32,338 nt of DNA from Planctomycetales bacterium. Its GTDB lineage: Bacteria > Planctomycetota > Planctomycetia > Isosphaerales > Isosphaeraceae. This document shows positions 19,832 through 23,216 of the stretch, one piece after another. Location: the NCBI GenBank assembly GCA_027451885.1, contig DAIDHX010000120.1:1-32338 (forward strand), given 5' to 3'. The notes below the pieces were generated by a model, which saw only the letters and a list, made by a program, of their open reading frames with translations, had not been told where the DNA came from and did not search any database. Within the stretch, counting starts at the first letter, position 1, and every line of letters begins with the position of its first letter. The position numbers and the translations under genes were made by a program.

Positions 19832-19984
19832 GGCGGCCGTCTCGCCTTGGCCGGGTTGACGGCTCGCAGGCTCCGGCGGCCGGCCTCGTGGACTGCTCGC
19901 GCCCGGGCGGGGAGCATAATTCAGGCGCCGGCCGGGCGATCGGAAGAACTGCGACTGGATTCCGATGCTCATCCCGCGGATTGC

Positions 19985-20019
19985 TCACAGGCGGAACACC
20001 ATGCGGGTCGCGCCTGTGA
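19985..20019. repeat. Perfect 9-bp inverted repeat between the membrane-protein gene and the PAP2 gene
   Basis: TCACAGGCG and CGCCTGTGA are separated by 17 nt. There is no T-tract on either side, so it is not a classic terminator. It could be an operator, a protein-binding leader hairpin or a Rho-dependent 3' end for the gene at 20104-21132. Confidence 0.4.
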
Positions 20020-20103
20020 CAACCCCCTCGGACGAGGATGGTTCAATGCCTGAACGCCAGGCCCAGGTGCTCCCAGTGATAACCCCACAACCGCAGTAAT
20101 CTC

Positions 20104-21132
20104 TTATGAGTTGACGTAGATCCGCCCAAGACCGCGGCTCGCCCACTTCGGCCTGCGCTGAAACCAGTGCAGCTCAAGCGCGCGGGCGTGGCACGTGAGC
20201 CCCACCACCCGCATCACCACCATCGCCAGGTAGAGCAGTCCGATCCAGTAAAGCCAAAGTGCGAGCGCTTCCATCCGAGCGGTGGGCATCCGGTAGAGCA
20301 ACAGCCAAACGCCCGCCGCCGCATACCCCAGCGTGAGGCCGGCCAGGATGCTCGGCAACACAATCGCCCAGCCCAGCTTGATGATCGAGGCAATCACAGT
20401 GATCGGATTCGCGGCGAGAATGTTCTCGTGCAGCAAGGACGAGGCGAGCGCGACACTCGCATAGCCGCCCCCCAGAATCGCCAGCTCGACCAGGATCACC
20501 CAGTCGGACCAGGCGAGCTCCTGATGCCTGCGCGCCAGGTACACCGCCGCGGGAACAACCGCGATCGAAAGCCCAACCCCGGCTGCCCAGAACCAGCGGC
20601 TGATCCCCTCGGCAATATCGCTGGGGTGCCAGTCGGGCCAGCGCGGGTGGTCGTTCTCCCCAAACGTGCTTGAAACCAGCATGTGCCCCAGGAAATGGAG
20701 CACATAGCCAAAGACCATGAAGAAGCTGAACGTCATGGGGACCATCACCGGCACGACGAGCAGCCCGAGCGCCCAGTGGCTCTTGTCGAGCGGCGAGAGC
20801 ACGGCAACGACGTCGAAGACCGGCAGCGAAAGCCCCCAGAGAGCAGGCGGCAGAAACACCAGAAGCCCGATCCCTGGCCCATCACACAAGGGATAAGCCA
20901 GGCACTCCCAGATGCCAGGTACGACCCGCTTATGCTTGTATCGCTGGCTCGAGAATGTCTCATAATCCTCGTCCCGCGGCACCACACGCACCGTCAGAGA
21001 GGCTTCCCTGTCGTACCATCGCTTGGGTTTGGCCAAGGGCGACCATCCTGGACCCAGGAGCGGGTCCCGCCAGCGGAACGGGCCAGGCACACTTGCCAGG
21101 CACGGCCGAGCCGGCTCGCCGCGCGAGCTCAC
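20104..21132 (-). CDS. Polytopic membrane protein of unknown function
   Basis: This 342-aa protein has an N-terminal soluble part of about 80 residues containing WYDREASLTVRVVPRDEDYETFSSQRYKHKR. Six or seven hydrophobic helices follow (for example LLVFLPPALWGLSLPVF, LLVVPVMVPMTFSFFMVFGY, LPSILAGLTLGYAAAGVWLLLY and LLYLAMVVMRVVGLTCHA). The basic tail reads HWFQRRPKWASRGLGRIYV. The cytoplasmic loop HMLVSSTFGENDHPRWPDWHPSDIAEGISRW is distinctive. I recognise no transporter or enzyme family. The frame opens with GTG at 21132 without a clear ribosome site, so the start is tentative. It lies 66 nt after the stop of the orphan blaI on the same strand, so it may be that repressor's cotranscribed target. 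Confidence 0.75.
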   Translation of the reverse strand: MSSRGEPARPCLASVPGPFRWRDPLLGPGWSPLAKPKRWYDREASLTVRVVPRDEDYETFSSQRYKHKRVVPGIWECLAYPLCDGPGIGLLVFLPPALWGLSLPVFDVVAVLSPLDKSHWALGLLVVPVMVPMTFSFFMVFGYVLHFLGHMLVSSTFGENDHPRWPDWHPSDIAEGISRWFWAAGVGLSIAVVPAAVYLARRHQELAWSDWVILVELAILGGGYASVALASSLLHENILAANPITVIASIIKLGWAIVLPSILAGLTLGYAAAGVWLLLYRMPTARMEALALWLYWIGLLYLAMVVMRVVGLTCHARALELHWFQRRPKWASRGLGRIYVNS

Positions 21133-21198
21133 CGATGCTGATTATCGCGTTGGATGGGATTGCTTCGCCAGGGGGGGCAGGCAATTCGACCGGACCGT

Positions 21199-21612
21199 TT
21201 ACCGATCCTTGTCTCGCTTCTTGCCGGCGGCCTCGCCCAGCATCGAATCGAGCACAGCACGGACCTCTTTGGCCTGGCCAGGCTTGAGCGGGTGCGACTT
21301 GAGCAAGTGCAGCACCAGCAGCCCAGGCTCGCCTTCATAAAGCTTGTCAACCAGGCTCGAGACCCGCCGTGTGCGGACTTCCTGGTCGGTAATCACCGGC
21401 TTGTAGACAAATGCCAGTTCGCGGCGGTCGCTCGTCACAAGCCCCTTGGACTCAAGCCGGTCAAGCAGCGTGGCCACCGTGGCGTACGACCACTCCCGGC
21501 CCGCGGCCCGGAGCGTCTCGAGCGCCTCACGCACGGTCGCCTGACCCCGCTCCCACAGAACCTTCAGGACGTCGAGCTCAGAATCTGGAATCGTTGGCGG
21601 TCGCTTTGCCAT
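21199..21612 (-). CDS. Orphan BlaI/MecI/CopY-family transcriptional repressor
   Basis: This 137-aa protein is of normal BlaI length. The winged helix is at 1-75 (IPDSELDVLKVLWERGQATVREALETL, then WSYATVATLLDRLESKGLV, the recognition helix region). A dimerisation domain follows (SSLVDKLYEGEPGLLVLHLLKS), ending in a Lys/Arg-rich tail (GKKRDKDR). Unlike the copy at 2298-2708, no M56 protease gene follows it; the next gene encodes an unknown membrane protein. GAGA about 9 nt before the ATG at 21612 supports this start over the ATG at 21627. The dyad-in-promoter structure 120-150 nt upstream suggests that it represses itself. Confidence 0.92.
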   Translation of the reverse strand: MAKRPPTIPDSELDVLKVLWERGQATVREALETLRAAGREWSYATVATLLDRLESKGLVTSDRRELAFVYKPVITDQEVRTRRVSSLVDKLYEGEPGLLVLHLLKSHPLKPGQAKEVRAVLDSMLGEAAGKKRDKDR

Positions 21613-21627
21613 CGGGATTCGTCTCAA

Positions 21628-22094
21628 TCAGGAAGCACGGGTCTACCTGACCCTTCTTCCCAAGTATAACTGATAAAAAGCCGCCTCGCAGCGGATGAAT
21701 CATCGCAAGAATGTCGATCGAATCAACCGTGTTCTATCCTAAGACAACTGTCTCACAACGTCAATCCCCCGCGCGCAATTCTTTCTCGATTTTCGGGTCG
21801 CCACAGCCTGCGGGAACACCCCCCACCCCACGCGCCCCTGCCTGAGAAAACAGGCATTTCAAGAGCGCATTGAGGCTGCCGAAATCCCGCTCGACCTCGC
21901 GCGCACAGCCGACGCTCGGAGCGGATAAAATGAAGGAAAACTCATGGGGCTGGCGCGCATCGCGCACCCATGAAAGCATGTTTCGTCCCTCGTGAAAATG
22001 CGCGCCGACTTCCCGTTCGCGACCGCGGCTGGCGGGGCCTGCGCAAGCCGGCTAAGATCGTGTTTTCGACACTGGACCAGAGACGGCCATCTTC
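21628..22094. other. Divergent intergenic region between the orphan blaI and the dehydratase/DPP-IV operon
   Basis: The left half holds the blaI promoter-operator. The middle has a TGCCTG-AGAAAA-CAGGCA hairpin (21839-21856) followed by TTTC, which looks like a weak terminator or attenuator on the plus strand. A 20-codon frame starts at an ATG near 21929 but has no supporting RBS. A TAAGAT box near 22052 could be the -10 of the plus-strand operon, but its -35 is poor. I see no gene here. Confidence 0.45.
21736..21764 (-). promoter_or_regulatory. Promoter with embedded dyad operator upstream of the orphan blaI
   Basis: On the minus strand TTGACG (21759-21764) and TAGGAT (21736-21741) are separated by exactly 17 nt, as in a sigma-70-type promoter. 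The spacer contains AGACA-nn-TGTCT (21742-21753), a perfect-arm dyad with a 2-nt centre. BlaI/MecI/CopY operators have the form nACAnnTGTn, so this is a good autorepression site. The predicted leader is about 115 nt. Confidence 0.6.
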
Positions 22095-23216
22095 ATGAAA
22101 ATCACAAGAATCCTGGCCTACCGGGTGCTGCTGCCGCTCCATGAGGGGGACTACAAGTGGTCCGGCGGCAAGTCGGTCACGGTCTTTGACTCGACGATCG
22201 TCGCCGTCGAGACCGACGCCGGGCTCACGGGATATGGCGAGGTCTGCCCGCTGGGACCGTTTTACCTGCCGGCGTACGCCGGCGGAGTTCGCGCGGGGCT
22301 GGCCGAGCTGGGGCCGCAACTGATTGGCAAATCCCCGCTCGAGCTGGGTGCGCTCAACCATTTCATGGACCAGGCGCTCAAGGGGCACGCCTACGTCAAG
22401 TCGGGGATCGACATGGCGGCCTGGGATCTCCTGGGCAAGGCCGCAGGCCAGCCGGTTTGCATCCTCCTGGGCGGGCGATATGGCGACGACTTCGTGCTCT
22501 ACCGGGCCATCTCGCAGGAAGCGCCCGAGGCCATGGCCGCCCGCGTGGCCGGCTATCGCGCGGAGGGTTATCGCCGCTTCCAGCTCAAGGTCGGCGGCGA
22601 GCCCGAGGTCGACATCGCCCGCATCAAGGCGGTGAGCGCGGTTCTCGAGCCCGGCGACAGGCTCGTCGCCGACGCCAACACCGGCTGGCGCATGCATGAC
22701 GCCCTGCGCGTGGTGCGGGCGGTGCGCGACATCGACGTCTACATCGAGCAGCCCTGCCTTTCTTATGAGGAGTGCCTCACGGTCCGCAAGCATTGCGACC
22801 ATCCTTTCGTGCTCGACGAGGTGATTGATTCGATCGACCCGCTCCTGCGCGGGCACGCGGATCGAGCGATGGACGTGGTCAACATCAAGATCAGCAAGTT
22901 CGGCGGCCTCACACGAGCCCGCCAGGCGCGTGACCTCTGCGCGTCGCTCGGGGTGGTGATGACGCTCGAGGATAGCTGGGGGGGCGACATCGTCACCGCG
23001 GCGATCGCACATCTGGCGCATTCGACCCCTCCCGAGCTGCTCTTCACCTCGACCGACTTCAACAGCTACGTCACGGTCTCGACGGCCGCGGGAGCGCCAG
23101 GTAGACGTAACGGCCGCATGGCCGCCTCGACCGCGCCCGGCCTTGGCATCGAGCCCCGCATGGAGATTCTGGGAGATCCGGTTCTCGTCATTGATCAAAA
23201 GGGCGTTCGGACATGA
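22095..23216 (+). CDS. Enolase-superfamily dehydratase, likely cis-3-hydroxy-L-proline dehydratase
   Basis: This 373-aa protein has the mandelate racemase/muconate lactonizing enzyme fold. Metal ligands are D193 (VADANTGW), E219 (YIEQPC) and D241 (VLDEV); the catalytic lysines are K165 (FQLKVGG) and K265 ([10 protein letters not shown]). The capping-domain motif [16 protein letters not shown] and the C-terminal [20 protein letters not shown] place it in the amino-acid/betaine racemase-dehydratase subgroup that includes 4-hydroxyproline betaine epimerase and cis-3-hydroxy-L-proline dehydratase. The latter converts cis-3-hydroxyproline to pyrroline-2-carboxylate. A proline- or betaine-epimerase activity is the main alternative. 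The stop overlaps the DPP-IV start by 4 nt (ATGA), so the two are translationally coupled. GAGA lies about 11 nt before the ATG. Confidence 0.85.

Follow-up and report, generated by a model that had tools for sequence, protein, structure and literature searches.

A conserved promoter dyad of an unpaired blaI gene in Isosphaeraceae suggests a BlaI repressor of its own promoter and of a type II secretion-like operon, possibly partnered by an M48 peptidase

Introduction

In the BlaI/MecI-BlaR1/MecR1 systems of Staphylococcus aureus and Bacillus licheniformis, an autoregulated winged helix-turn-helix repressor of the Penicillinase_R family acts at dyad operators and a metalloprotease gene often lies next to it, an arrangement that the locus described here resembles. 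Repressors of the BlaI/MecI/CopY group bind dyads of the ACAnnTGT type (PMC7253601), and for BlaI of the classical system both an Asn-Phe cleavage bond and a coactivator ligand have been described (PMC3305447). In Clostridium thermocellum, BlaI proteins govern small regulons with paired dyads (PMC8457756). Planctomycetes possess many BlaI regulators, the targets of which are mostly unknown.

The blaI gene studied here lies in a 32,338-nucleotide contig of a Planctomycetales bacterium of the family Isosphaeraceae (GCA_027451885.1, DAIDHX010000120.1), the whole of which we call the window. Whereas the operator halves of BlaI/MecI-BlaR1/MecR1 read TACA/TGTA, the outer base pair here is G/C and not T/A; an M56 partner is absent and an M48 peptidase is found instead, the Asn-Phe bond is replaced by His-Leu, and the likely target is a type II secretion (T2SS)-like operon, with no beta-lactamase or PBP gene at the targets. 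Having neither an adjacent M56 gene nor an Asn-Phe bond, the window BlaI does not belong to the BlaI-BlaR1 pair type. Identity with CopY is likewise ruled out, since the NCBIfam CopY model scores 67.9 against a cut-off of 121.95, the C-terminal CxC copper motif of CopY/CopR is missing from a protein that has no cysteine at all, and the window dyad agrees with the core KACANNYGTM of the cop box RNYKACANNYGTMRNY (PMC7253601) but not with its RNY flanks. The C. thermocellum proteins BlaI_0696 and BlaI_1845 (PMC8457756) are comparable in self-regulation, in having one to three target operons and in their ordered dyad pairs, but differ in their motif (GTCTAT/GACTAT), their linked BlaR1 and their other targets. 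In the open-access literature that we searched, no paper describes T2SS genes under BlaI control or a BlaI partnered by an M48 peptidase.

Results

Promoter, dyad and product of the window blaI gene

Reading the minus strand directly, we found TTGACG-17-TAGGAT at 21764-21736, upstream of blaI, and the features of the locus are as follows.

21759..21764, minus strand: -35 hexamer TTGACG, from sequence and consensus scan; TTGAC is kept in orthologues
21742-21758, minus strand: 17-bp spacer between TTGACG and TAGGAT, TTGTGAGACAGTTGTCT
21742..21753, minus strand: putative operator dyad AGACAGTTGTCT (= AGACAgtTGTCT), core GACAnnTGTC invariant in orthologues
21736..21741, minus strand: -10 hexamer TAGGAT, from sequence and consensus scan; TTAGGATA is kept directly after the dyad
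21613..21735, minus strand: from the -10 to the ATG of blaI, for the most part untranslated leader, not conserved in sequence on alignment
21199..21612, minus strand: blaI, 137 amino acids, Penicillinase_R (PF03965) by profile match, no cysteine
20104..21132, minus strand: polytopic membrane protein P0002, 66 bp after blaI, no Pfam or NCBIfam match

The original prediction placed the dyad in the -35/-10 spacer, which the sequence bears out, and described it as filling that spacer, which it does not: the perfect dyad AGACA-GT-TGTCT takes up 12 bp adjoining the -10, and the remainder of the 17 bp lies outside it. A consensus scan of 19900-22200 returned no other sigma70-like promoter, and from the position of the -10 we predict a transcription start at about 21729 and a leader of about 115 nt. 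An Rfam scan of the window gave no RNA elements. Within the leader, a terminator-like hairpin CCGCTGCGAGGCGG followed by CTTTTT (21680-21694, minus strand) is not conserved in relatives and may be an attenuator or chance. Judged on its letters alone, the dyad is unremarkable and no more than moderately rare: with at most one mismatch, 0.32 occurrences are expected in the window, and 25 of 100 shuffles contained it.

By profile, predicted fold and operator core, the window protein is a member of the BlaI family. Its match to PF03965 reaches 93.5 bits (cut-off 22.6), its closest PDB matches are MecI and BlaI, and the AlphaFold model of the monomer (pLDDT 80.5) shows an N-terminal winged helix followed by C-terminal dimerisation helices, with MecI/BlaI structures, including the MecI-operator chains 2d45 and 1sax, as best Foldseek matches. 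As is characteristic of BlaI/MecI proteins, an ACAnnTGT-type dyad lies in its own promoter. The start at ATG 21612 is backed by the beginning MAKRPP that orthologues have in common, and the recognition helix WSYATVATLLDRLE is nearly invariant among them. Since the residues aligned to the classical cleavage bond (N101-F102) are His-Leu in both the window protein and its orthologues, cleavage of this BlaI, if any, would occur elsewhere or have another specificity.

The P0002 gene is probably co-transcribed with blaI, and many orthologous loci, across many genera, have a member of its family linked downstream of blaI; a fold model of moderate confidence gave no PDB match below E 0.1. In distant P0002 relatives (L046, L051, L052) the N-terminus has a zinc-ribbon-like stretch that resembles that of the M48 protein described below. 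Directly after blaI, three genera have a di-haem oxidoreductase gene (PF06537, cytochrome c peroxidase-like; L046:3473-4804, L049:3427-4905 and L051:3561-4898).

Conservation of the operator in Isosphaeraceae

Orthologues of the window blaI are present in most Isosphaeraceae genomes, and nearly every one of them has TTGAC-N7/8-GACAnnTGTC-TTAGGATA at 108-219 bp before the start codon, so that the operator consensus proposed for this lineage is indeed available. The flanking DNA has diverged among orthologues to the point of being unalignable, while the -35, dyad and -10 hardly change; because the dyad is conserved in this way and the DNA around it is not, we take it as a genuine element under selection. 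Across a collection of 33 distinct sites, no variation occurs in GACA, in TGTC or in the T-TA-AT of the -10 region, and the remaining spacer bases vary; the pattern used for the collection itself required the invariant bases, but no close orthologue that we inspected failed it, and failures were confined to distant relatives of the L032-L034 type. One of these, a relative at 50% identity in another family (L033, genome G036), has TTGACAGTGAATTACATGTGTCCTAGCAT about 200 bp upstream of blaI, with the same geometry and a diverged dyad. A 35-bp promoter/operator profile built from 28 sites gave one strong match per genome, at blaI, in 39 of the 45 Isosphaeraceae genomes (19 genera), and none in the 204 genomes that represent other families of the class. 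The conservation of the dyad upstream of orthologues, on which the original prediction could have failed, is thus nearly complete, and in several genera another full dyad, lying outside the promoter, is kept as well. On this conservation, the dyad is very probably the operator of the window blaI.

Paralogues and the absence of an M56 partner

The genome encodes eight BlaI and seven M56 proteins; by position, every M56 gene stands beside one BlaI gene, and the window blaI is the sole BlaI gene of the eight with no adjacent M56. Since none of the seven M56-paired paralogues has ACAnnTGT in its promoter, an operator of this type is specific to the window blaI. Among orthologous blaI loci, the search for M56 yielded a single weak match of 63 residues, at L049, inside the M48 gene of that locus. 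Calling the gene an orphan was therefore right as far as an adjoining M56 is concerned, but overlooked a conserved M48 metallopeptidase gene, which in most genera stands in divergent orientation to blaI. The window also holds a conventional pair about 19 kb away from the unpaired blaI, with BlaI at 2298-2741 and a BlaR1-type M56 at 1162-2301, both on the minus strand. Elsewhere, a different BlaI paralogue, this one M56-paired, has a perfect dyad GTAGTAGACTTCTACTAC 88 bp before its gene (L236, G000:C301), which is a candidate for its operator.

A membrane M48 metallopeptidase linked to blaI

An alignment-based search located a single-copy gene for a membrane M48 metallopeptidase (PF01435, 39.3 bits against 20.3; HExxH zinc motif HELAH) in 37 of the 45 Isosphaeraceae genomes. 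In 28 of them M48 and blaI are divergent and no more than 1.2 kb apart (within 600 bp in 21, 0.85-1.2 kb in 7); in the other nine, which include the window's genus, M48 lies elsewhere, in the window's genome on another contig (C311:61737-62795). The gene is missing in g6, g18 and G045, all of which likewise have no blaI operator match, as well as in G008 and G012, where blaI is at a contig edge; because absence is confined to few lineages, the co-occurrence of M48, blaI and operator is confounded by phylogeny. Stop codons break up the short M48 match beside blaI in genus g20 (G021:C2:1851561-1852145), which may be a gene in decay.

Of the 13 genera in which M48 adjoins blaI, 8 carry another full dyad on the M48 side, 32-34 bp further upstream, as against none of the 5 genera that have no adjacent M48 gene (Fisher p 0.036, with genera that are not independent of one another); these dyad assignments are our own, and one of the eight has one mismatch. 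Upstream of unlinked M48 genes we found no ACAnnTGT. The unlinked and dyad-free state of M48 in the window's own genome would suit a BlaI controlled by a small molecule, such as the coactivator ligand mentioned above, or by an M56 protein in trans, with the M48 linkage reflecting another role, for instance membrane quality control; M48/HtpX proteins are commonly quality-control enzymes. Such control is hard to square with a single-copy M48 gene that is divergent in 28 of 37 genomes, often with a second operator on its side, and every M56 already has a BlaI neighbour of its own, so that we consider it unlikely, though a serious contender. That M48 is the functional partner of BlaI has, in our judgement, slightly better than even chances, given this linkage.

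The search for further targets

A genome scan with AGACAnnTGTCT had been proposed as a way to the regulon, but in the 6.18-Mb genome it returned only the blaI site itself, a single occurrence, and the reversed control pattern also occurred once. Counted genome-wide, the strict core GACAnnTGTC showed no excess either (23 against 21 for a control pattern). A likely second-target site emerged only when the core was relaxed to ACAnnTGT at the same promoter position: TTGACN{7,8}ACAnnTGT occurs in exactly two places in the window's whole genome, at blaI and before T2SSF genes, at the following site.

Contig C127:35009-35053, window's genome: T2SSF promoter site cccTTGACAgcctcgTACAAGTGTGgtgtacttggctcaTACAAATGTA, before T2SSF

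The two dyads of this promoter are the only ACAnnTGT within 19.5 kb. Besides three T2SSF proteins, the operon specifies two DUF1559/N_methyl proteins and one short pilin-like protein; the T2SSE gene lies upstream. In relatives, the weaker matches of the 35-bp profile in g14 and g17 and one exact match in g2 all fall between the T2SSE ATPase gene and the T2SSF genes. Orthologous T2SSF genes are repeatedly preceded by TTGAC-N7-(G/T)ACAnnTGT, and often another ACAnnTGT follows 20-26 bp further downstream. Upstream regions of gspF (200 bp) contained ACAnnTGT in 27 of 30 cases, against 2 of 493 matched control windows taken from these loci. With a matrix trained on blaI sites only, they far outscored the controls (Mann-Whitney p 7e-19, phylogeny not corrected); some gspF promoters, in g3, parts of g17 and g8, match poorly.

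These dyads might instead belong to another regulator, with BlaI acting on its own promoter and, where M48 is divergent, on the M48 promoter. Pure autorepression of this kind would explain why the strict core is in no excess and why each genome has a single strong profile match, and the T2SSF dyads of the window's genome (TACAAGTGTG and TACAAATGTA) agree with the blaI operator in the ACAnnTGT core only. It leaves unexplained, however, why the arrangement stands at the same promoter position in many genera, with the full GACAnnTGTC before T2SSF in several (g2 and g9 included), and why genera that have no blaI operator have no T2SSF dyads in the spacer; the core is also absent from every other BlaI paralogue promoter. 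We regard autorepression alone as improbable, and the T2SSF operon as a probable target of the window BlaI.

No third family-wide target was detected, since the matches left over after removal of blaI and T2SSF (38/89) were fewer than the 58 control matches. The gspF cluster aside, additional TTGACN{6,9}GACAnnTGTC sites in relatives had no recurrent downstream gene, and conserved-looking extra sites in g7, g6, g17 and g15 no consistent gene. Recurrent DUF1559 genes were discounted as targets, these forming a very large paralogous family.

Discussion

From sequence, promoter geometry, conservation, uniqueness, co-occurrence and linkage we infer binding, repression, cleavage by M48 and a signal, as follows. 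Sitting between the -35 and -10, a BlaI dimer would keep RNA polymerase off the promoter, and blaI, probably together with the membrane-protein gene behind it, would thereby be under autorepression. The operon of three T2SSF genes and pilin-like genes, a type II secretion/pilus platform, is most likely repressed likewise; its promoter has either a single ACAnnTGT dyad or a pair, of which the first stands at the same -35/-10 position as the blaI operator. Repression would probably be relieved by M48 proteolysis of BlaI, with M48 replacing the BlaR1-type M56 partner; the His-Leu residues at the classical cleavage bond and the dyad-free upstream regions of unlinked M48 genes weigh against this reading. 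We thus consider it likely that BlaI represses its own promoter and the T2SS/endopilus operon, with relief probably by M48 rather than M56. The fuller proposal of a BlaI-M48 signalling pair in Isosphaeraceae, in which an HtpX-like M48 inactivates a BlaI controlling its own divergent locus and the T2SS/endopilus operon, and so would couple the envelope state to secretion and not to beta-lactam resistance, we put at even chances. That the dyad is a chance palindrome in a core promoter conserved for RNA polymerase alone, as matches with up to one mismatch in shuffles of the window and the conservation of the -35 and -10 might suggest, is very improbable and strongly disfavoured by conservation, given GACA/TGTC constant in sites whose other spacer bases vary (the collection pattern having required GACA/TGTC) and the full dyad kept outside the promoter in several genera.

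A type II secretion cluster has been discussed among the conserved gene clusters in an essential-gene study of Planctopirus (PMC10632474). What is gained here is a regulator common to the family, together with its precise operator, a probable regulon of two promoters, a candidate protease and a likely target machine, namely a T2SS-like cluster that includes DUF1559 pilin-like proteins. A vague annotation as an antibiotic repressor is thereby turned into directly testable biology, and the locus suggests that BlaI can be wired to a protease family other than M56.
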